Shown here in pieces: positions 5,061-14,203 of a DNA stretch of 32,463 bases. Each line of letters opens with the position of its first letter. Positions within the stretch are counted from its first letter, which is position 1. The DNA lies in NCBI RefSeq assembly GCF_007692535.1, contig NZ_REBW01000182.1:1-32463 (forward strand), in the 5' to 3' direction. The notes beneath the pieces were generated by a model that did no database searches, was not told where the DNA came from, and saw nothing but the letters and a program-made list of their open reading frames with translations. This DNA is from Thioalkalivibrio sp. (lineage in GTDB: Bacteria > Pseudomonadota > Gammaproteobacteria > Ectothiorhodospirales > Ectothiorhodospiraceae). The position numbers and the translations under genes were made by a program.

Positions 5061-5906
5061 GTGAACCCGATGCACTGGCAACGTACGCTCGGCATCCTGC
5101 GCTCGCTGGTGATCTACTGGCGGCCGGGGCGACAGCGTAGCTTGCGCCGACTCTATCGCCCCTTCCTGCACGACCAGTCGCTGGTGTTCGACATTGGCGC
5201 GCACCTGGGTGATCGCACGCGAGCCTTCACGAGCCTGGGAGCCAGGGTAGTGGCACTGGAGCCGCAACCGCATCTGTTCCAATGGCTGCAACGGCTCGTC
5301 GGTTCCCGACCCGGGGTCATTCTGCGGCCGGAAGGGGTTGGCCGGCATCCGGGCGAGGCGACGCTCGCGGTGAGCCGACGCACACCGACGGTGTCCACCC
5401 TCTCCCGCCACTGGCAGACCGACCTCGGCCGCAATAATCCGTCATTCGGGGCGGTGGCCTGGGAGGAGTTCATCCAGATTCCCCTGGTCACCCTGGACCA
5501 ACTGATCGAGGAATACGGCCTCCCGGATTTCTGCAAGATCGATGTCGAGGGCTTCGAGGCCGAGGTCCTGAATGGGCTCAGTCAGCCGGTACCCGCGCTC
5601 TCGCTGGAGTTCGTCGCCGGTGCTCTGGAAATCGCCGGGGACGCGGTGGGACGGCTCGCCGAGCTCGGACCCTACGAGTTCAATGCCATCCGTGGTGAGC
5701 AACGCCAGTATCTGTTCGCGGATTGGCTGCCGGCCTCCACCCTGTTGCAGTGGCTGCAAGAGGGGGCCGATTCGCTCCCCTCCGGAGACATCTATGCGCG
5801 TTTGCCCGCTCCCGCGGGCCGGACACAGCCAGGTCGCACGCAACTGCAGGCCGCGTCGGGAGACGGCCTGACAGGCACCCGTGCAGCGGGAAGTCCGAGG
5901 CTATGA
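5061..5906 (+). CDS. FkbM-family SAM-dependent methyltransferase
   Basis: Class I methyltransferase of the FkbM family, which mostly O-methylate sugars or polyketides. The SAM-binding motif VFDIGAHLGDRTRAF falls at about residues 40-54, followed by the acidic strand end VVALEPQP; the family hallmark KIDVEGFEAEVLNGL lies near residue 160. Length is 281 residues, with a low-complexity tail after about residue 255. The start is GTG 5061 or ATG 5070; GGAGG at 5053-5057 is very near the first and 12 bases from the second, so the start is uncertain. The stop overlaps the start of the creatininase-family gene (ATGA at 5903-5906), which implies translational coupling and a shared job with it. Confidence 0.85.
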   Translation: MNPMHWQRTLGILRSLVIYWRPGRQRSLRRLYRPFLHDQSLVFDIGAHLGDRTRAFTSLGARVVALEPQPHLFQWLQRLVGSRPGVILRPEGVGRHPGEATLAVSRRTPTVSTLSRHWQTDLGRNNPSFGAVAWEEFIQIPLVTLDQLIEEYGLPDFCKIDVEGFEAEVLNGLSQPVPALSLEFVAGALEIAGDAVGRLAELGPYEFNAIRGEQRQYLFADWLPASTLLQWLQEGADSLPSGDIYARLPAPAGRTQPGRTQLQAASGDGLTGTRAAGSPRL

Positions 5907-6715
5907 ACCGATCCGGTTTTCCTCGTTGGCAGGACATGACTGCACCCGAGATCCGGGCGTTCTCGGGCCGTGATCCGGTGGTGATTCTGCCGCTTGCGGC
6001 GATCGAACAGCATGGCCCGCATCTGCCGTTGTCCACGGACCTCGACATTGGCATGGGACTGCTCGAGGCAGCGGCGGCGAGGCTCGGTGATTCCTGCGCG
6101 GTGCTGGTTCTGCCCCCGATGGCGGTCGGGACCAGCATGGAGCACGAGGCCTTTCCGGGTACGCTGAGCCTGGATCCCGAGACCGCCCTGGCGGTGATTG
6201 GACGCTACGGTGGCGACGTGGCCCGCGCCGGTGCCCGGCGCCTGCTGCTCTGTAACAGCCATGGCGGCAACACCCAGGTGATGGATCTCGCGGGTCTTCG
6301 TCTGCGCCGGGATCACGGGCTGCTCGTGGCCAAGTGCAGCTATTTCCGGCTTCCGGCTCCTGCCGACCTCGATTTGCCGGCGGGCGAACTCCGGCACGGA
6401 TTCCACGGGGGTGCGGTCGAGACCGCGATGATGCTGCACCTGATGCCAGGATCGGTGCGCATCGAACAGTGTGCGGACAACGTGTCCGTCGGCTACCGCC
6501 TGGAGCGGGAGATGGCGCAACTGGGGCCGGAAGGGGCGGCCTCCTTCGCCTGGATGACGCAGGATCTCCATTCCGGCGGTGCGGTGGGAAACGCGCTTCT
6601 GGCCGACCCGGATCTGGGCGCGCGCCTCGTGGCTCATTACGGCGCGGCCATTGCCCAGGTCATCCGCGATACCGCCACGTTTCCGCTCGACGTGCTCCGG
6701 GCGCCGCAGCGATGA
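5903..6715 (+). CDS. Creatininase-family metal-dependent amidohydrolase
   Basis: The family hydrolyses C-N bonds; members include creatinine amidohydrolase, MftE, and the archaeal formamidopyrimidine deformylase ArfB. The 270-residue product keeps all usual metal ligands: EQHG (Glu35, His37), TD (Asp46), NSHGGN (His120) and VETAMM (Glu173). Start ATG 5903 overlaps the upstream stop. A stand-alone RibD-type reductase follows after 70 bases on the same strand. ArfB and ArfC in archaea are precisely a creatininase-fold deformylase followed by a RibD-like reductase acting on the GTP-derived pyrimidine, so I suggest, without proof, a pyrimidine substrate. No mycofactocin genes are nearby, which argues against MftE. 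Confidence 0.85.
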   Translation: MNRSGFPRWQDMTAPEIRAFSGRDPVVILPLAAIEQHGPHLPLSTDLDIGMGLLEAAAARLGDSCAVLVLPPMAVGTSMEHEAFPGTLSLDPETALAVIGRYGGDVARAGARRLLLCNSHGGNTQVMDLAGLRLRRDHGLLVAKCSYFRLPAPADLDLPAGELRHGFHGGAVETAMMLHLMPGSVRIEQCADNVSVGYRLEREMAQLGPEGAASFAWMTQDLHSGGAVGNALLADPDLGARLVAHYGAAIAQVIRDTATFPLDVLRAPQR

Positions 6716-6785
6716 GGCGGGTCTGCTCTCCCCGTTGTCATCCACGGCCGGGACGCACGCCCCCGACGCATCGACGTTCCCTGCC

Positions 6786-7592
6786 ATGAACGACAAACGC
6801 GCGGATACAGTGGAATGGGACGCGATCCTCGAGCACCTGGCCATGCTTCGGAGAAGCGAGCAAGGTCAGCCTGCCGCCCGGGAACCAGGGACCGACGATC
6901 CCGGTGGTGGCCGCTCCCAGGTCGAGGCCATCTACCTGCCACTCGTCCAGACCCGGAAACTGGTGATCGCACAGCTCGGACAGACGCTGGACGGGCGCAT
7001 CGCCACCCATAGCGGCCACTCGCATTTCGTGACCGGACCCGAGGACATCGAGCATCTGCACCGCCTCCGGGCCCTGGTCGATGCGGTGGTCGTGGGAGCC
7101 GGTACCGTCATTTCCGACGACCCGCAACTGACGGTGCGTCACGTGCGCGGTGACAACCCGGTCCGTGTGGTGTTGGATCCATCCGGCCGGGTTCCATCGG
7201 ATCGGAAGATGTTTCAGGACGGCGCCGCCCCGACCCTGTGGCTGCAAAGTCGGCGCGCGAAGCCGCCTGTCGCCAGCGGGACGGTGGAGGTTCTGCAGAT
7301 GGACGAGGCAGTAGCAGGCGGGGGGTTCCATCCCGCAGCGGTGCTTGAGCGATTGGCTGCCCGCGACCTGACCCGGGTGCTGGTCGAAGGCGGTGGCCTC
7401 ACCGTGTCCCGCTTTCTGGCGGCCGGGGTGCTGGACCGACTGCATCTGACGGTCGCGCCCCTGCTGCTGGGCTCGGGGCGTCCCTCGGTGACCCTGGACC
7501 CGGTGCATACGCTGCACGAGGCATTACGTCCGCAGTGTCGTCACTTTGCCCTGGGTCCGGACATCCTGTTCGATCTCTGCCTTCGCCCCTAA
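6786..7592 (+). CDS. RibD C-terminal-domain (DHFR-fold) reductase
   Basis: NADPH-dependent reductase domain resembling the second half of RibD, which reduces the ribosyl group of the riboflavin-pathway pyrimidine to ribityl. Here it stands alone: 268 residues with about 55 unrelated N-terminal residues and no deaminase domain or zinc motif. Conserved segments seen are LDGRIAT (about 68-74), DAVVVGAGTVISDDPQLTVR (about 99-118), VRVVLDP, and VLVEGGGLTVSRFL with the late VAPLLLGSG. Start ATG 6786 follows the creatininase-family gene by 70 bases. A normal bifunctional ribD for riboflavin would be expected elsewhere, so this copy probably serves a dedicated pathway. Its last 194 bases are also covered by the convergent flippase frame. 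Confidence 0.85.
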   Translation: MNDKRADTVEWDAILEHLAMLRRSEQGQPAAREPGTDDPGGGRSQVEAIYLPLVQTRKLVIAQLGQTLDGRIATHSGHSHFVTGPEDIEHLHRLRALVDAVVVGAGTVISDDPQLTVRHVRGDNPVRVVLDPSGRVPSDRKMFQDGAAPTLWLQSRRAKPPVASGTVEVLQMDEAVAGGGFHPAAVLERLAARDLTRVLVEGGGLTVSRFLAAGVLDRLHLTVAPLLLGSGRPSVTLDPVHTLHEALRPQCRHFALGPDILFDLCLRP

Positions 7593-8514
7593 GGCGCCTG
7601 GAATCGGCTCCGCCTCGCGCCAGGCTGACCCGGAGCAACGGCAGCAGGCCCGGCAGGGAAGCCAGCAGGAACAGCAGCCCGTAAGCCACGGCAATGGCGA
7701 CGCCCTCAGCGACACCGAGGCCACTGAGCCCCCACAGAAGGGCCGCCGCGCCTTCGCGCACGCCCCAGCCCGCGACGCTGATCGGCAGCATCATCACCAG
7801 CAGCACCGGAGCAATCAGGGGCAGCAGGGTCGCCAGCGGAATCTCCGAACCGAGTGCACGGGCTGCGGCCACGTACACGATCAGGTTGGCCGCCATCACA
7901 AGGGCTGCGGTGCCGACCTGTATCAGTAAAACGGGTGCGGGTAGGAAAGCCCGGCGCGCGTCCGCCCCGAACTCCCGGAGGGCGGCCCGCAATGCCGGAA
8001 GCCGTTGCCGGAGGCCCACTGCGCCGATCACGAGGGCCGCGAACGTGAGCGGCACCGCCCAACCCCATCCAAGCGAGTCCGGCCGCAACGCCGGGATCGC
8101 CAGCAGCGATGCGATGGCGACGGCCAGCATCACGGACTGGACCACGGCCCGTTCCAGCACGACCGCGTGAATGGCGCTGCGCCTGCGCACCGCGACGATG
8201 GCGTGGCGCCAGGCCCGCGAGACATCACCCAGGATGCCGCCAGGGAGGACCTGGTTCAGAAAGACCCCGAGGTAGTATTCACCCAGCGCGTGCCGGTAGG
8301 GCATGCCCACCCCGAGCCGCGCCGCGGTGAATCGCCAGCGCCAGGCCAGCAGCATGATCTGCAGAACGGACAGGAGCAGGGCCGGCAACACCCAGCGCAG
8401 GTCGAGCTGCACGAGGTGTGCCGCGATCTCGGCGGCGTCGAAGATCTGAAACAGGACCAGCAGCAGGGTGACGCTGACGGCAAGGCGCAACAGACCTTTC
8501 ACCCTGTCGTTCAT
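7399..8514 (-). CDS. YbhN/AglD-like flippase-type membrane protein (LPG synthase TM family)
   Basis: Polytopic inner-membrane protein of the UPF0104/lysylphosphatidylglycerol-synthase transmembrane family; such proteins are thought to flip or modify lipid-linked substrates. About seven or eight hydrophobic segments are visible in residues 1-305, with family motifs LNQVLPGGILGDVSRAWRH near residue 86 and MMLPISVAGWGVREGAAALL near residue 240. It lacks the soluble MprF synthase domain. The start ATG (8514) overlaps the stop of the upstream methyltransferase (ATGA, 8511-8514). Odd feature: the frame runs 194 bases into the convergent RibD-like gene, adding about 64 Pro/Gly/Arg/Ala-rich residues not expected for the family. 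Confidence 0.8.
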   Translation of the reverse strand: MNDRVKGLLRLAVSVTLLLVLFQIFDAAEIAAHLVQLDLRWVLPALLLSVLQIMLLAWRWRFTAARLGVGMPYRHALGEYYLGVFLNQVLPGGILGDVSRAWRHAIVAVRRRSAIHAVVLERAVVQSVMLAVAIASLLAIPALRPDSLGWGWAVPLTFAALVIGAVGLRQRLPALRAALREFGADARRAFLPAPVLLIQVGTAALVMAANLIVYVAAARALGSEIPLATLLPLIAPVLLVMMLPISVAGWGVREGAAALLWGLSGLGVAEGVAIAVAYGLLFLLASLPGLLPLLRVSLARGGADSRRLRGEGRDRTGCPDPGQSDDTADVMPRAAYAPGPGSPRDAPSPAAGARPSDAVGPAPRPPESGTR

Positions 8515-9317
8515 CTCACCGGTCCCGGCAGGGCGAGCAGATCCTGATGCCCAACCTGCACGCGGATACGACCGGCGGCGAGGTCTGCACAGCGACGCCC
8601 GCCCCAGGCGCGGAATCCGGAGCAGCTCTCGGGAAGCTGTTCACAGGCGGCCGCCACCCACCCCTCGACCAGTGCCTGGGCCAGCACCACGTTCTCACGC
8701 CCGAGATCCCAGGGGCTGGATTCCACCCAGACGTGATAGCCGGCATCGCGGAACCGCCCGGCCAGCTCGCCGGGCGCGGCGGGACCCAACGCGGCACCGA
8801 GACCCTTGTCCCGCTGCTGGTGTGCGTTGACGGCCGCGAGCACGGCATCGTCCAGCGGGTCAGGGGAGGACCATTCGACCTGCCCGTCATAGCTCAGCAC
8901 CATCAGGGCTGCCGCGCCCCGTTCACGGCAGGCCGCGACCAGCGAGTCGAGCCAGTCCGCCGAGACGAGGTCCAGCAGGGCGGATGCGGTCACCAGGTCC
9001 GGCGACGGATCGCTGGCAAAACGATGCCATTCGGAGAGATCGGCCTGAATGCTGCGCGATTCATGTCCACTGGCCTTCGCGCTGGCGAGGGCCAGCAGGG
9101 CAGGGTCGTGATCCACCAGTGTCCAGTGCTGGTCGGCTGGCAGCAGGGGCGCGAGAAAACGCCGGTTGGAGCCGGTACCGGTCCCCAGATCGAGTACACG
9201 CAGGCGCTGGCGAGGTGCGCACCAGACCTGCAGCCGTTGCCCCAGTACCCGGGAGCGTGCCTGGTGATCCGCAGGTTCACGCAGCGCCAGCCAGTCGGCC
9301 TGGAAATCCCCGCTCAT
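8511..9317 (-). CDS. Class I SAM-dependent methyltransferase
   Basis: A 268-residue soluble protein. Motif I is RVLDLGTGTGSNRRFLAPLL near residue 40, followed by an acidic residue after the second strand (WTLVDHDPALL), then DLSEWHRFASDPSPDLVTASALLDLVS-type motifs II/III. The substrate is not evident from sequence. I set the start at ATG 9317, not an upstream start, because it overlaps the glycosyltransferase stop in an ATGA (9314-9317). It is therefore translationally coupled on both sides, between the glycosyltransferase and the flippase-like gene, and probably acts on the same intermediate. Confidence 0.82.
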   Translation of the reverse strand: MSGDFQADWLALREPADHQARSRVLGQRLQVWCAPRQRLRVLDLGTGTGSNRRFLAPLLPADQHWTLVDHDPALLALASAKASGHESRSIQADLSEWHRFASDPSPDLVTASALLDLVSADWLDSLVAACRERGAAALMVLSYDGQVEWSSPDPLDDAVLAAVNAHQQRDKGLGAALGPAAPGELAGRFRDAGYHVWVESSPWDLGRENVVLAQALVEGWVAAACEQLPESCSGFRAWGGRRCADLAAGRIRVQVGHQDLLALPGPVR

Positions 9318-10375
9318 CGGGCGGCCAACTCGTTCACGGCCGCTGCGAAGGCCGCAGACGCCTGATGCCAATCGGGCAGGGTCCGAGCATGAGCCAACGC
9401 GCCCTCGGCCAGATCCCGCCGCAACCCGGGCTCATCCAACAGCCGAACGAGGGCCGCGGCCAAGGCGTCCACATCCCCGCAAGGGATCAACAATGCGGCC
9501 TGGCTTGGTACGGTGTGCGGAATCGCGCCGCCGGTCGTCGCGAGGATTGGCAGCCCGTGTGCCATCGCCTCGGTGAAGGCCATGCCATAACCCTCGTACC
9601 ACGAGGGCAGTACGAACAGGCTGGCGGACTGATACAGCGCTCCCAGTTCCTCGTCGCTGCTCTCGCCGGCAAAGCGGACGCGGTCGGTGATTCCGAGGCG
9701 ACCTGCGTCGGCCCGCACCGCCTGCACGAACGCTGGATCGCGCTCGGTACTCCCGGCCAGCACACACTCCCAGGCACGATCAGAGAGCCGCCCCAGGGCC
9801 TGCACCAGCAGGTCCTGGCCCTTGCGCGGCACCACGGAACCCACACACAGCAGCAGCGGGGACGCTGCGGATTCGGGCGCGCGGGCCCGCTGCGCGGGCT
9901 CGGTACCCGGAATCACCACGCGAACCGGAGTCGATGCCTGCAGCCAGGGCCGCAGGAGAGCGGCCGTGAACGGGCTGGTCACGATCACTGCCTGGCAAGC
10001 CGCCAGGGCGCGCTGTTCCAGTTCGCGCAGCTCGGCGGCACGGGGCGGGGGCAACGCAGTCTCTTCGGACAGGGGGTGATGGACCAGACCGATCAGCGCG
10101 AGCCGCCCGCCATGCGCTTCGGCCGGCAGGGGCAATCCACCCAGCGCGAGCCCGTCGATCACCACCGTCGACCCAGCCGGCAACTGGCGCAGGGTGTGGT
10201 CGAGGGCCTGCTCGGCCTCGCGGTCGGGTCCTGGAAAACGGCCGGCCAGCTCGTGCACCTGGACCGACCAGCCCATTCGGCGCAGGCCGGCGCAGATCCG
10301 ACTGTCGTAGATGTACCCTCCGGTACGCTGCTCCAGGGCCCCAGGAACCACGAGATGCAACGGGGCCAGGCTCAA
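9314..10375 (-). CDS. Glycosyltransferase family 4 (GT-B)
   Basis: A 353-residue GT-B fold enzyme transferring a sugar from an activated donor. The N-terminal domain has the acceptor-side GGYIYDSRI loop near residue 19. The C-terminal donor domain has [17 protein letters not shown] near residue 195 and the retaining-GT E-x7-E motif [20 protein letters not shown] near residue 265. The first codon appears to be TTG at 10375, overlapping the stop of the upstream PTPS-like gene as TTGA (10372-10375); this tight coupling makes TTG believable though unusual. The next gene overlaps its stop. The acceptor is unknown; context suggests the same small molecule the PTPS-like protein handles. Confidence 0.82.
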
Positions 10376-10770
10376 AGTGTTCCTTCGTAACTGGCCCAGG
10401 CGACGTGGGATTCGTTCAGGGTCACGCAGAGCGCGGTCAGGCCTTTTGCGGAGGATCCCAGCTTGCCGCGTGCGATCGCGTCCGCCAGCCGCAGGTAGAT
10501 CTGATGGGCGAGAAACTCCGTCGTGGTGTTCTGGTCGTCGAAATCCGGATGGTCGTCAAGATTCTGATAGTTCAGGGCGGCCAGAATGGCGGACAGCTGC
10601 TGGCTGGCGAGGCCGATGTCCACCACCAGTCCATCCGAATCCAGTTCCTCACGGCGGAAGGTGGCGTCGACCACGTACGTGGCGCCGTGCAGACGCTGGG
10701 CCGGGCCAAACACCTCCCCCGTGAAGCTGTGAGCGATCATGAAGTGGTCGCGGACATTGAGACTGTACAT
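10372..10770 (-). CDS. Degenerate 6-pyruvoyl-tetrahydropterin synthase/QueD-fold protein
   Basis: A 132-residue T-fold protein of the PTPS/QueD superfamily, the usual length. Against QueD, the first zinc His survives (MIAHSF, His14) and the second too (LHG, His28), but the third is Ala30 where QueD has HGH, the catalytic Cys position is Ala24, and the catalytic Asp-His pair of LDHHYLN is replaced by Asn67-Tyr68. The pterin-anchoring Glu near the C-terminus (LNES) seems kept. So it probably binds a pterin- or pyrimidine-like ring but should not do QueD chemistry. Start ATG 10770 has AAGGAG five bases upstream. First gene of the tightly overlapped GT-methyltransferase-flippase set. The alignment was made by eye. 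Confidence 0.75.
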
Positions 10771-10912
10771 GCGGACTCCTTTGGAAGGGCAACGGAAACA
10801 AGGGTTGATCGTTGTTCGATGACCGTGGGTCAGCGGATTCGTTCCTGTGGTCTCCTCGGTATAACTCTCATGGCCCGGGAGAGCGCCACCCCTGATGATG
10901 AAAAGCGGCAAA

Positions 10913-11027
10913 CTGTAGGTCGGGTTAGCGCAGCGTAACCCGACGGGCCTCGCACTCCACCCATGGGCGCAAAATAGCGTCGTCCCCGGGACGTCGTCGG
11001 GTTACGCTGCGCTAACCCGACCTACAG
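10913..11027. repeat. Perfect 33-bp inverted repeat (REP/MITE-like palindromic element)
   Basis: The left arm at 10913-10945 (begins CTGTAGGTCGGGTTAGCGCA) is the exact reverse complement of 10995-11027; 49 bases lie between. Each arm is itself partly palindromic around GGTTAGCGCAGCGTAACC, so the unit folds into a compound hairpin. Copies of this GGTTAGCGCAGCGTAACC type are known scattered between genes in many bacterial genomes as REP- or MITE-like elements. It sits between the dehydrogenase stop and the leader of the PTPS-like gene and could act as a terminator between the two. Confidence 0.85.
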
Positions 11028-11063
11028 GGCTGTGACTTTCACGCCAAGTACGATCGAACCGCG

Positions 11064-12047
11064 TCAGGGATACCGGATGCGATGGCAGAGGGTGTCACCG
11101 CCTCCCCGGGCCAGTTCGGTCATCACCGCCGGCAATGTCTCGAAGACACTCTCGCCAGTGATCAGGTGATCGAGCTCGGACGCCCGCAGTAGATCCAGGG
11201 CGAGCCCCAGGCGGCGACGGTAGTCCCAGCGGGCCTGCCGATGCGCCGGAATTCGGCCCACCTGGCTGCTTTTCAGCACCAGCCTGCGCGAGTGAAACCC
11301 CTCGCCGAGGGGCAGTGTCACCGGGCGGTCGCCATACCAGCTCAGTTCCAGCACGGTGGCTTCGAGGCCAGCGTGCCGGAGGGCCTCGGCCAGGCCCTCC
11401 GGCTGCCCACTGGCATGAATGACCAGGTCCGCGTCGGCAGGCTCTGCAAACTCCCGGGCAAATTCGATCCCCAACGCCGTGCTCGCGGCGCGGCGTGCCG
11501 GGTTGATGTCGATCAGCGTAACCTGCGCACCGGGGATCTGCCGACAGAGCCAGGCGGTCAGGAGTCCCAGCACGCCGGCGCCAAGGATCACGATCCGATC
11601 GCCCGCAAGAGGACCGGCGTCCCAGAAGGCGTTGATCGCGGTCTCCATGTTCGCTGCGAGCACCGCCCGTTCCGGTGGCACCCCTGCAGGCAACGGAACC
11701 GCAGCGGAACCGGGAACCCGGTACCGGTCCTGGTGCGGATGCAGGCAGAAGACCGTCTCCCCGATGCGCTCGGCCGGCCCCTCCTCGATACGACCCACAT
11801 TCATGTAACCGTACTTCACCGGGCCGGGGAAATCGCCGGCCTGAAACGGCGCACGCATGGCTTCATACTGCGTCTTCGGGACCCTGCCGGTGAAGACCAG
11901 CGTCTCGGTGCCGCGGCTGATACCCGAATACAGGCTGCGGACCAGCACGTCGCCGTTGCGCGCCGGCGGCAGGGTCTCCTCCCGGATGCGGCCGGCGCCG
12001 GGTTGGGTGATCCAGAAGGCGCGGGCGGTCTCCGCGGACATGTTCAT
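11064..12047 (-). CDS. Medium-chain dehydrogenase, BchC-like, lacking zinc ligands
   Basis: NAD(P)-dependent oxidoreductase of the MDR superfamily, 327 residues. The Rossmann motif VILGAGVLGLL is at about residues 153-163, with an acidic strand end (LIDIN, Asp180). The catalytic domain has SGISRGTETLVFTGRVP where zinc MDRs have G-I-C-G-T-D, and GYMNVG where they have GHE-x-x-G, so both active-site zinc ligands are missing; the structural-zinc Cys lobe is also absent. The SGIS-x-GTE pattern resembles BchC (bacteriochlorophyllide dehydrogenase), but an extra segment after it differs. Start is ATG 12047 or 12041; GGAG at 12052-12055 precedes. It is divergent from the CDP-alcohol phosphatidyltransferase with a 155-base gap between them. 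Substrate unknown. Confidence 0.8.
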   Translation of the reverse strand: MNMSAETARAFWITQPGAGRIREETLPPARNGDVLVRSLYSGISRGTETLVFTGRVPKTQYEAMRAPFQAGDFPGPVKYGYMNVGRIEEGPAERIGETVFCLHPHQDRYRVPGSAAVPLPAGVPPERAVLAANMETAINAFWDAGPLAGDRIVILGAGVLGLLTAWLCRQIPGAQVTLIDINPARRAASTALGIEFAREFAEPADADLVIHASGQPEGLAEALRHAGLEATVLELSWYGDRPVTLPLGEGFHSRRLVLKSSQVGRIPAHRQARWDYRRRLGLALDLLRASELDHLITGESVFETLPAVMTELARGGGDTLCHRIRYP

Positions 12048-12202
12048 TGGTCTCCGGTGCGGTGCGGGCGTCGCTGCATGGTACTCATCGTCGCCACCCA
12101 ACCGCCACAACAAATGCCGCTGAACACGGTCGAAAACGGCAACGTCGGGTGCAACCGGACGATGCCGCCCTTGCGGACTGACATGATCCAGGAAAAAGAA
12201 CG

Positions 12203-12985
12203 ATGAAGAACAGGCTTCGAAATACAGGCTTGCGGCGGCAGGCCCGGCAATTTGCAACGCAGGCGGGGGTCTGGAGGTGGGAACTCACCGCCGGACTCCT
12301 GACCGTCCTGGCCGGGGCCGCGCTACTGCACCTTGCCGCCGGGGTGCCCGCCTCGGTGTTCGCGGCATCGCTGCTGTCCTACGGGCTCCTGGTCTGCATG
12401 GTCCTGCACACGTCCCCGGCGGTCTTTCACCGCGACGGTCCGGGGCTCGCCAACCGCGTTACCTTCCTGCGCGCCGCGCTGATAATGCCGGTCGCAGCCA
12501 TGGCGCTGCTCCCTGCCCATCTCGATGCGGGCGTAGCCTACTGGCTGCTCGGCCTGGCGGCCATCGCCCTGGCGCTCGACGGGGTGGACGGGGCGGTGGC
12601 ACGGCGTACCGGCCGTATCACCGCCTTCGGCGCACGCTTCGACATGGAACTCGACGCCCTGCTGATCCTGGTCCTGGCGCTGTTGGTCTGGCAGACGGGG
12701 CAGGCGGGCCTGTGGGTACTGCTGGTCGGATTGATGCGCTACCTGTTCGTTGCTGCAGGATGGCGCTGGACCTGGCTGCAGGGCGATCTGCCGCCGAGCC
12801 GTCGCCGGCAAACGGTCTGCGTCGTGCAGTCGGTCGCGCTCCTGGTGGCACTGGCACCCGTGGTGTCTCCCGGCCTTGCAAGCGCGCTCGCGCTCGCGGC
12901 GTTGCTGCTTCTCACCTATTCCTTCACCGTGGACGTGCTGTGGCTCTACCGCCAGGACCGCAGCCTTGCAGGAGAATACCCATGA
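12203..12985 (+). CDS. CDP-alcohol phosphatidyltransferase family membrane protein
   Basis: Integral membrane enzyme joining a CDP-activated lipid or alcohol with a hydroxyl acceptor, releasing CMP. The full signature DG-x2-AR-x8-G-x3-D-x3-D is present: Asp126, Asp129, Arg134, Gly143, Asp147 and Asp151, so all four metal-binding aspartates are kept. Length is 260 residues with about six hydrophobic segments and an extended N-terminal part of about 80 residues before the ANRVTFLR helix. Start ATG 12203 has AGGA upstream. The stop overlaps the ATG of the decayed YceI gene (ATGA at 12982), showing they were once one operon. The alcohol acceptor cannot be read from sequence; it is not clearly PgsA or PssA. 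Confidence 0.85.
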   Translation: MKNRLRNTGLRRQARQFATQAGVWRWELTAGLLTVLAGAALLHLAAGVPASVFAASLLSYGLLVCMVLHTSPAVFHRDGPGLANRVTFLRAALIMPVAAMALLPAHLDAGVAYWLLGLAAIALALDGVDGAVARRTGRITAFGARFDMELDALLILVLALLVWQTGQAGLWVLLVGLMRYLFVAAGWRWTWLQGDLPPSRRRQTVCVVQSVALLVALAPVVSPGLASALALAALLLLTYSFTVDVLWLYRQDRSLAGEYP

Positions 12986-13240
12986 CGCTGGCGTACTCGA
13001 ACCGCCTGTTCGCGAAATCCGCGTTCGTATTTGCGCTGCTGCTGGCCCGTCCTGGCGCGGCCAGCGCGGACATGGAGCGATGAGAGATCGACCGGGAACA
13101 CTTCCCGGCCCGGGATTCTGTGTGCCTCGCTGCGGGGCACCATCAACAGAAGCGGGTGGGGCATGACCTACAGCCTTTCACGCGGTCTGGTTGGCGATGA
13201 GATCGAGCTCATCCTCGAATTCGAGGCCCAGCGTCAGTAG
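12982..13240 (+). pseudogene. Remnant of a YceI-family secreted lipid-binding protein
   Basis: The first 33 codons (12982-13083) encode a good signal peptide (MTLAYSNRLFAKSAFVFALL..., ending ASA) and then stop at TGA 13081. The bases straight after still read EIDREHF in the same frame, like the start of a mature YceI domain. Shortly downstream, in another frame, RSGWGMTYSLSRGLVGDEIE and LILEFEAQRQ, the typical YceI C-terminus, end at TAG 13240. About 100-130 residues of the roughly 190-residue family are missing. YceI proteins are lipocalin-like binders of isoprenoid or other amphiphilic molecules. Internal deletion plus a nonsense codon makes this a decayed gene, provided the assembly is right. 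Confidence 0.75.
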
Positions 13241-13682: not shown

Positions 13683-13843
13683 ATATTGGCACGTGGTTAT
13701 ATGCTTATTCCGTGCCCTCCAGAGAGTCGGAAGCACCCGATTCGAAGGCGGAATCAAAGTGACCATGCCTGCCACGCGTGGCCCTTGGCAGAGCAGGCAA
13801 AAGAAAACAGCAAGGGTGTTTCCGTGAATCTAGGAGAAAAGTC

Positions 13844-14203
13844 ATGCGCAAATCTCTGAAAGTTATAGCGGCTTCTGCTCTCGTCCTGGCCTTTGCGGCT
13901 CCGATGCAGTCCAGCGCCCAGTGGTACGGCCCGGGTTATGGCTATGGCCCGTACTATGGCCCCGGTTACTACGGACCGGGATACGGCCGTGGCTGGGGTG
14001 ACTGGTTCGGGTTCGGCGACATGTTCGGCGACATCGGCTTCTCGATGCGCGGCAGCGGCCGAGGCTGGGGACGCGGATACGGCCGTGGCGACGGTTGGGG
14101 CTACTACAACCCCTACACCTATCGCGGCTACGGCTATGCGCCGTACTACGGTGGGCCCTGGGGCGCCCCGGCTGCGCAGCAGCAGCAGCCTGAGTCCGAG
14201 TAA
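13844..14203 (+). CDS. Sulfur globule-type Gly/Tyr-rich secreted protein
   Basis: A 119-residue exported protein. The signal peptide (MRKSLKVIAASALVLAFAAP..., cut after SSA at residue 25) is followed by a mature part dominated by Gly, Tyr, Pro and Trp in repeats such as YGPGYGYGPYYGPGYYGPGY, a short DMFGDIGFSM core, and GRGWGRGYGRG. This composition is that of sulfur globule coat proteins (Sgp) of purple and colourless sulfur bacteria, which line periplasmic sulfur deposits. It ends in an AAQQQQPESE tail. ATG 13844 has GGAG at 13833-13836; an upstream in-frame GTG would bury the signal peptide. Two hairpins follow the stop. Other Gly/Tyr-rich surface proteins look similar, so function is probable, not certain. 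Confidence 0.75.
   Translation: MRKSLKVIAASALVLAFAAPMQSSAQWYGPGYGYGPYYGPGYYGPGYGRGWGDWFGFGDMFGDIGFSMRGSGRGWGRGYGRGDGWGYYNPYTYRGYGYAPYYGGPWGAPAAQQQQPESE

Follow-up and report, generated by a model that had tools for sequence, protein, structure and literature searches.

The described systems closest to the locus reported here include a variant of the riboflavin pathway and two proteins of Streptomyces coelicolor. One of the latter, SCO6650, is said in a 2008 structure report to lack zinc and the catalytic triad of 6-pyruvoyltetrahydropterin synthases (PTPS) and not to catalyse the PTPS reaction, while keeping a pterin-like site. As for SCO6655, Spoonamore et al. reportedly found in 2006 that, with Met at the Tyr105 position, it releases a formamido-pyrimidine instead of the diaminopyrimidine. 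In PMC2853524, SCO6655 is annotated as a GTP cyclohydrolase II (GCHII) and stands in a table of mostly stationary-phase-upregulated genes. BrbF of Sinorhizobium, according to PMC9478397, is a creatininase-family AFRPP deformylase required for riboflavin. Here we analyse nine genes on a whole contig of Thioalkalivibrio sp. (NZ_REBW01000182.1 of assembly GCF_007692535.1; genome size 3.1 Mb), 32,463 nucleotides long and called the window below.

We are highly confident that these nine genes form one pathway. It probably leads to a tailored, GTP-derived pyrimidine or pterin-like compound, with the cell envelope as its endpoint in most lineages. The genes, with the short names used hereafter and the decayed tenth member of the block, are as follows.

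5061..5906, + strand: FkbM-family methyltransferase (FkbM; PF05050 51.2 bits, TIGR01444 90.6 bits)
5903..6715, + strand: creatininase-family amidohydrolase (CREAT; PF02633 208 bits)
6786..7592, + strand: lone RibD_C-type pyrimidine reductase (RIBD; PF01872 146.7 bits)
7399..8514, - strand: YbhN/LPG_synthase_TM flippase-like membrane protein (FLIP; PF03706 127.9 bits)
8511..9317, - strand: class I SAM methyltransferase (MT), 268 aa (PF13649 38.1 bits; reading frame reaches 9371)
9314..10375, - strand: GT4 glycosyltransferase (GT4; PF13692/PF00534 about 110 bits)
10372..10770, - strand: PTPS-fold protein (PTPS), 132 aa, orthologue of SCO6650 (3D7J) (PTPS family 91.4 bits; reading frame reaches 10911)
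11064..12047, - strand: BchC-like MDR dehydrogenase (ADH), 327 aa (TIGR01202 49.6 bits, cut-off 291; reading frame reaches 12257)
12203..12985, + strand: CDP-alcohol phosphatidyltransferase (CDPOH; PF01066 64.8 bits; catalytic motif intact)
13036..13228, + strand: decayed YceI-like gene 3' of CDPOH (from comparison with relatives)

A gene order shared by four phyla

Conservation was examined mainly in three samples: 398 genomes of 213 genera of the phylum (phylum sample); 58 genomes comprising 30 of the window's genus (genus sample) and 28 of other genera of its family or class; and named genomes, where at least 585 places encode a PTPS relative. Of the latter we read the best 80, many of them from Streptomyces, and counted those 63 that span 20,300 bases or more (full named loci), leaving out 17 shorter ones. 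Some duplicate genomes of the other samples (e.g. L114, L141 and L172). Gene presence was scored per locus with bit thresholds of our own, and some loci stop at contig ends.

In the phylum sample, PTPS orthologues occur in 27 genomes from 20 genera (E <= 4.2e-32, followed by a gap down to 4.8e-16), and ADH orthologues (E <= 1e-25) in exactly the same 27. The strong RIBD orthologue (E <= 7.3e-47; next match 6.2e-33) is found in 24 of these 27 genomes and in none of the 371 others, the weaker matches lying mostly in longer frames that resemble ordinary RibD. If the genes were independent, the hypergeometric chance would be 1.7e-42 for the PTPS/ADH identity and 1.5e-35 for RIBD, figures that are not true probabilities, as the genomes are related. 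The 27 loci hold PTPS (27), ADH (27), GT4 (26), MT (25), RIBD (23), CDPOH (13), FLIP (11), GCHII (11), an OpgH-like GT2 (10), FkbM (9) and CREAT (7, or 8 if one copy on another contig is included). Order and strand of MT-GT4-PTPS-ADH are kept in 24 of them; in the other three a member is absent from the stretch read.

Among the full named loci, PTPS, ADH and MT are present in all 63, GT4 in 62, CDPOH in 59, FLIP in 58, CREAT in 51, GCHII in 50, RIBD in 18 and FkbM in 8. Fifty-five of them combine FLIP, MT, GT4, PTPS, ADH and CDPOH, in the window's order in 50 and on its strands in 52, the remaining three having CDPOH on the opposite strand. The order recurs in Actinomycetota (Streptomyces, Actinomadura, Micromonospora, Pseudonocardia and others), Gemmatimonadota, Acidobacteriota and Pseudomonadota (Thioalkalivibrio, Halomonas, Kushneria, Granulosicoccus, Thauera, Variovorax and a Rhodospirillaceae genome), and Halomonas ventosae (L128) has every member of the set in one stretch. 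This conservation in four phyla excludes a chance arrangement of the nine genes. Pairwise distances between the gene families correlate at 0.32-0.89, RIBD being the weakest, a comparison of at most 32 chosen loci without a control that does not amount to proof.

The PTPS protein matches 28 of the 58 genomes searched, all in the window's genus (28/30, its own genome included), and none of the 28 that represent the rest of the family and class; its closest named matches are Thioalkalivibrio proteins, at 83 and 79% identity. A PTPS orthologue occurs in 41 of 101 genomes from the genus that includes Streptomyces tendae, a patchy distribution that looks like that of specialised metabolism. Three of these 101 genomes (G452, G491 and G555) have two SCO6650-type gene copies. 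Given the gene order kept in four phyla and the 41 Streptomyces genomes, the cluster, an old and widely shared bacterial pathway, very likely makes something useful.

The cluster is split in many species of the window's genus, whose PTPS core locus is devoid of RIBD and CREAT. We read 16 regions of ten genomes, together with the GCHII loci of the genus. Some split species have a second locus, FkbM-CREAT-GCHII-RIBD, others two further loci, FkbM-CREAT and GCHII-RIBD; FkbM stays linked to CREAT in the split genomes read. All 16 split-type core loci hold PTPS, GT4, MT, ADH and CDPOH. Whole-genome searches of the genus sample nevertheless found PTPS in 28 of the 30 genomes, CREAT in 29, and RIBD in 29 at E <= 1e-8, a tally that we set at 27 (E <= 6.4e-53) because the matches in G015 and G019 are weaker and housekeeping-like. 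Retention of CREAT and RIBD after their separation from the core is good evidence of joint function. An earlier note, made from the sequence of the window alone, had proposed a single pathway across both strands and recommended a co-occurrence survey; with the genes of both strands together in most loci and CREAT and RIBD retained when apart, the uncorrelated scatter that would have spoken against its proposal was not observed.

In the window, the reading frames are all open where the earlier note had placed them, and the family assignments agree with the profile searches. The starts of MT (9317), PTPS (10770) and ADH (12047) were set from orthologue alignments, that of MT also from its four-base overlap, and give proteins shorter than the reading frames allow. 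Four-base overlaps join FLIP to MT, MT to GT4, GT4 to PTPS and FkbM to CREAT; those along the FLIP-MT-GT4-PTPS run, already pointed out in the earlier note, are exact if MT starts at 9317. RIBD and FLIP are convergent and their 3' ends share 194 bp (7399-7592). A like arrangement is found in loci L032 and L038. The flanks are ordinary, as had been claimed, with genes for an S1-domain protein, a LapB-type protein, pyrF (our own reading of the frame), an HHH protein and a galU-like nucleotidyl transferase upstream, and for rhodanese, a sulphur-globule-like protein and RdgC downstream. The sulphur globule match (13778-14203) is a small Gly/Tyr-rich protein with a PF17228 score of 29 bits (cut-off 26.7). 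Scans for promoters and terminators gave no signals above chance level.

The proposed route from GTP

Thirteen aligned orthologues of the PTPS-fold protein have V6, R7, M11, I12, H14, S15 and the motifs FGPAQ, HGAT and TTTEF in common. Residues were counted over 133 rows, in which some genomes occur twice; two rows, one of them a non-orthologue, could not be read by motif. In alignment with PTPS chains, the catalytic Cys of the FGxC motif and the third zinc-binding His (HGH) are both replaced by Ala in 131/131 loci. Two of the three zinc-binding His residues are mostly retained (the first in 122/131 by motif), and the Asp-His of the catalytic triad is found in 0/131, the residues preceding xNLD being Asn-Tyr in 103/131. 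A motif search found the head-group Glu, the residue that holds the pterin head group in PTPS and QueD, in 130/131. The protein also falls below the NCBIfam QueD cut-off (42 vs 89.25 bits). The replaced catalytic residues rule out a role as an ordinary pterin synthase or QueD. The earlier note had placed three of the nine genes in families that act on or bind GTP-derived rings: an aminopyrimidine start is likely and GCHII was found, but the PTPS-fold protein is no ordinary pterin synthase.

The best solved match of this protein is 3D7J, 'Uncharacterized protein SCO6650', and SCO6650 scores 209.6 bits against the family profile; judged from these matches, it is the orthologue of the window protein. 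Counting from SCO6650 along other Streptomyces loci (PTPS, GT4, MT, FLIP, CREAT, GCHII), not in S. coelicolor DNA, would assign the cluster to SCO6650-SCO6655. The count makes SCO6655 the GCHII, in agreement with its annotation in PMC2853524. It makes MT SCO6652, whose log2 ratios between second and first mycelium, as given in PMC3610822, are 0.8, 4.3 and 4.1 at 24, 48 and 72 h, i.e. about 17-20-fold at the two later times.

The earlier note had predicted that relatives would encode a GCHII in the cluster. Such a gene is indeed present in 11 of the 27 phylum-sample loci and 50 of the 63 full named loci, no more than 1 kb from RIBD or CREAT in 10/11 and 45/50 of them. The Gram-negative cluster enzyme is about 380 aa long and scores 345 bits with NF006456 (cut-off 464) and 233.6 with NF001591 (cut-off 148), and the Streptomyces one has a single domain and passes the GCHII cut-offs. 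In the window's genus, 16 genomes have the cluster type. Seven others, the window's included, have another, single-domain GCHII elsewhere; none has both, and two of the seven (G014 and G016) have no further GCHII match. This mutual exclusion suggests, but does not show, a replacement. The single-domain enzyme of the window's genome (contig G000:C77, locus L239, 5058-5873) lies outside the cluster and is unlinked to it; it passes NF001591 (174.9 vs 148), and its neighbours look like transport genes.

CREAT carries the metal-ligand motifs of the creatininase family, EQHGPHLPLSTD, NSHGGN and HGGAVET. It falls below the ArfB model, the window protein not being listed and the Streptomyces one reaching 39.1 bits (cut-off 180). 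A link with the formyl group comes from position 105 of GCHII, read from alignment with the Escherichia coli enzyme (2bz0). Among 51 actinobacterial loci this residue is Met in 40, His in 7 and Tyr in 4; CREAT accompanies all 47 with Met or His and none of the 4 with Tyr, although few lineages are involved. The pattern fits a role of CREAT as a deformylase, and by analogy with the enzymes cited above we propose that it is a formamide hydrolase acting after GCHII. In a midpoint-rooted tree of 58 creatininase sequences of our choice, actinobacterial and Gram-negative cluster copies form separate groups, non-cluster copies being nearer to the Gram-negative one (support for the grouping of the latter 100/98 without L085 and 90/90 with it). 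This would imply either that creatininases were recruited twice to the same position or that the two groups parted very long ago. Creatininase matches at large, present in 20 of the 27 cluster genomes (at 1e-25) and in 71 of 398 overall, were dropped as evidence of co-occurrence, since five of the six off-locus copies tested fell outside the cluster group in the tree; seven more such copies were not placed.

As for RIBD, its sole domain is PF01872 (residues 60-247 of 268), with no deaminase domain listed. Its closest solved structures, 6p8c and 2azn, are diaminopyrimidine-type reductases, and it lies below the curated equivalogs (TIGR01508 113.8, cut-off 186.45; TIGR00326 116.8, cut-off 156.35). 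We propose, from these relationships, that it reduces a ribosyl to a ribityl chain.

From the gene order, co-occurrence, residue changes and GCHII presence observed, a route may be proposed whose reactions, step order and product are ours to infer. GCHII, whose gene in many relatives accompanies the cluster or one of its split parts, would open GTP; in the window's species another GCHII must serve. Where the formyl group is retained, CREAT would remove it to give 2,5-diamino-6-ribosylamino-pyrimidinone phosphate, whose ribosyl chain RIBD would then reduce to ribityl. The PTPS-fold protein might use its retained Glu to bind the 2-amino-4-oxo-pyrimidine head group and catalyse a reaction other than that of PTPS, after which ADH, GT4 and MT would tailor the molecule. 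Finally, where present, FLIP, CDPOH, FkbM and the YceI-type protein may insert it into the membrane or carry it to the other side. That the pathway starts from a GTP-derived aminopyrimidine appears quite likely.

Several observations weigh against this reading. RIBD is present in only 18 of the 63 full named loci, most Streptomyces loci being without it, and 20 actinobacterial genomes (19 Streptomyces and one Pseudonocardia) have no strong RIBD, with weak matches in 13 (best 1.1e-11); genomes without it must use a different reductase, or else the chain remains ribosyl. CREAT occurs in only seven of the phylum-sample loci, and the five other copies of cluster genomes noted above fall outside its tree group. 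Gram-negative cluster GCHIIs have Tyr105 with or without CREAT, so the residue gives no support for the formyl step in these bacteria. The cluster-type GCHII is absent from the window's species and close kin, though CREAT is present. Of the membrane-related genes, FLIP (11/27), CDPOH (13/27) and FkbM (9/27) are not universal in the phylum sample, and FLIP is found in none of the 16 split-type core loci (core loci alone examined). Lastly, the other large GCHII match of the window's genome (G000:C89, L241, 968-2077) belongs to the bifunctional RibB type (NF010626 525 bits, cut-off 513), a kind of protein that includes RibBX. Its GCHII part is weak (TIGR00505 65.8 bits, cut-off 205.85), and that of the genus is probably weak likewise. 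Each of these genomes may thus possess just one good GCHII; for 16 species of the genus this may be the cluster type, which would then serve riboflavin too. This weakens the claim of a pathway-dedicated GCHII in this genus.

Membrane-related genes and other readings

The CDPOH motif D..DG..AR.{8}G...D...D is complete in the window and present in 106/107 loci. A YceI gene follows CDPOH on its 3' side in 28 loci (at least two of which are one genome counted twice) of the window's genus, Halomonas, Thauera, Variovorax and others. In relatives this gene is intact after CDPOH (PF04264 126 bits in one of them), and in the window it is recognisable over about 23 codons close to its beginning and over the final 45, the middle being gone and the frame broken. 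Other recurrent neighbours encode cytochrome b561 (9 loci), OpgG (11), an OpgH-like GT2 (17; Pfam gives general GT2 families alone) and a membrane protein that matches no Pfam family and, by our reading, resembles a sulphatase-type transferase (18). OpgG/OpgH-like (periplasmic glucan) genes adjoin the cluster in Halomonas-type and Gemmatimonadota loci (L084, L090, L123, L128, L130, L135 and others), and an OpgH-like gene follows ADH in eight loci outside the window's class. These envelope-type neighbours hint at a membrane-associated product, yet they are lineage-bound. As FLIP, CDPOH, FkbM and CREAT are not universal, 'lipid-linked' is unproven, and we regard the odds that the product is lipid- or envelope-linked as even. 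It is tempting to speculate, though this is a tentative and rather unlikely version, that the product belongs to a new class of membrane-anchored glycosylated ribityl-pyrimidines or pterins handled by a YceI-type carrier (in some lineages by cytochrome b561), as a lipid-soluble redox cofactor or an envelope component.

Alternatively, the cluster might make a ribityl-pyrimidine or pterin that is glycosylated and methylated, has no lipid link, stays soluble and is exported, such as a pigment, signal or protectant, with FLIP serving only for export and CDPOH being an unrelated neighbour. Among 15 phylum-sample loci outside the window's class, all have PTPS and ADH, and most GT4, MT and RIBD, but just one has CDPOH or FLIP; the patchiness in Streptomyces points the same way. 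The near-constant presence of CDPOH and FLIP in the full named loci and the adjacency of YceI to CDPOH in several lineages argue against such a product, which we consider possible but doubtful.

The set might also be an auxiliary riboflavin supply, in which GCHII, a BrbF-like creatininase-type deformylase and the RibD-type reductase do no more than supply flavin synthesis, with the remaining genes as bystanders. The precedent of BrbF, the riboflavin-type families of RIBD and GCHII, and the prospect that the cluster-type GCHII is the only good one in the window's genus favour this idea. The weak GCHII part of the RibB-type protein made us raise its probability slightly and lower, as slightly, that of the pathway to a tailored compound. 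It nonetheless appears improbable: no lumazine or riboflavin synthase is present among the nine genes and ten scanned neighbours, the strong RIBD orthologue is confined to genomes with the PTPS/ADH core, and seven genomes have another GCHII elsewhere, that of the window's genome passing the NF001591 cut-off.

Still less credible are two merely co-located modules, one for an envelope glycan (GT4, FLIP, FkbM, CDPOH, OpgG/OpgH-like) and one for a pyrimidine (GCHII, CREAT, RIBD, PTPS). OpgG/OpgH-like genes do stand beside the cluster in several lineages and split loci do occur, but PTPS and ADH form one interleaved run with GT4 and MT, and the split in the genus parts FkbM-CREAT-GCHII-RIBD from MT-GT4-PTPS-ADH-CDPOH, not glycan from pyrimidine genes. 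A mycofactocin-like, peptide-derived cofactor pathway was rejected as very improbable: MftE is the model nearest to CREAT, but its cut-off of 172 is reached neither by the window protein (TIGR03964 116 bits) nor by the Streptomyces one (142.8), and the nineteen window genes scanned, the only locus searched for them, include no radical SAM or MftB-like gene.

Significance and comparison with known systems

The earlier note had called the pathway undescribed. We found no description of the gene set as a pathway or of its product in the open-access literature, outside which most subscription journals lie. The claim is only partly right, however, as SCO6650 (3D7J) and SCO6655 (GCHII) are individually on record. 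A single pathway to a tailored GTP-derived compound would give a context to these two proteins, the first of which has a structure and an unassigned function. It would also suggest a reaction new to the PTPS fold and an envelope compound supplied by riboflavin-type chemistry. If the membrane-anchored version were true, streptomycetes, halophiles and Gemmatimonadota would have this class of molecule in common, and the PTPS-fold enzyme in mid-pathway would perform a new chemistry. The gene set is small enough for expression as a whole.

Among known systems, the toxoflavin cluster is alike in its dedicated GCHII, RibD-like enzyme and methyltransferase and in making a non-vitamin product from GTP; it is not known to have a PTPS, GT4, flippase or CDP-alcohol transferase. 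The riboflavin pathway with a separate deformylase (archaeal ArfA/ArfB, bacterial BrbF) shares the ring opening, the deformylase and the RibD_C-type reductase, to which the cluster adds a PTPS-fold protein, a dehydrogenase, and glycosyl- and methyltransferases, with no lumazine or riboflavin synthase seen. PTPS and QueD are of the same family as the window protein, which mostly keeps two of their three zinc-binding His residues and the head-group Glu, whereas the catalytic Cys, the Asp-His pair and the third zinc-binding His are replaced. A further close system is SCO6650-SCO6655 of S. coelicolor, genes which would be the same pathway in another phylum and have been treated as single genes, with no pathway or product, in the papers found. 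Unlike most Streptomyces loci, the window has RIBD and FkbM, but it has no cluster GCHII.

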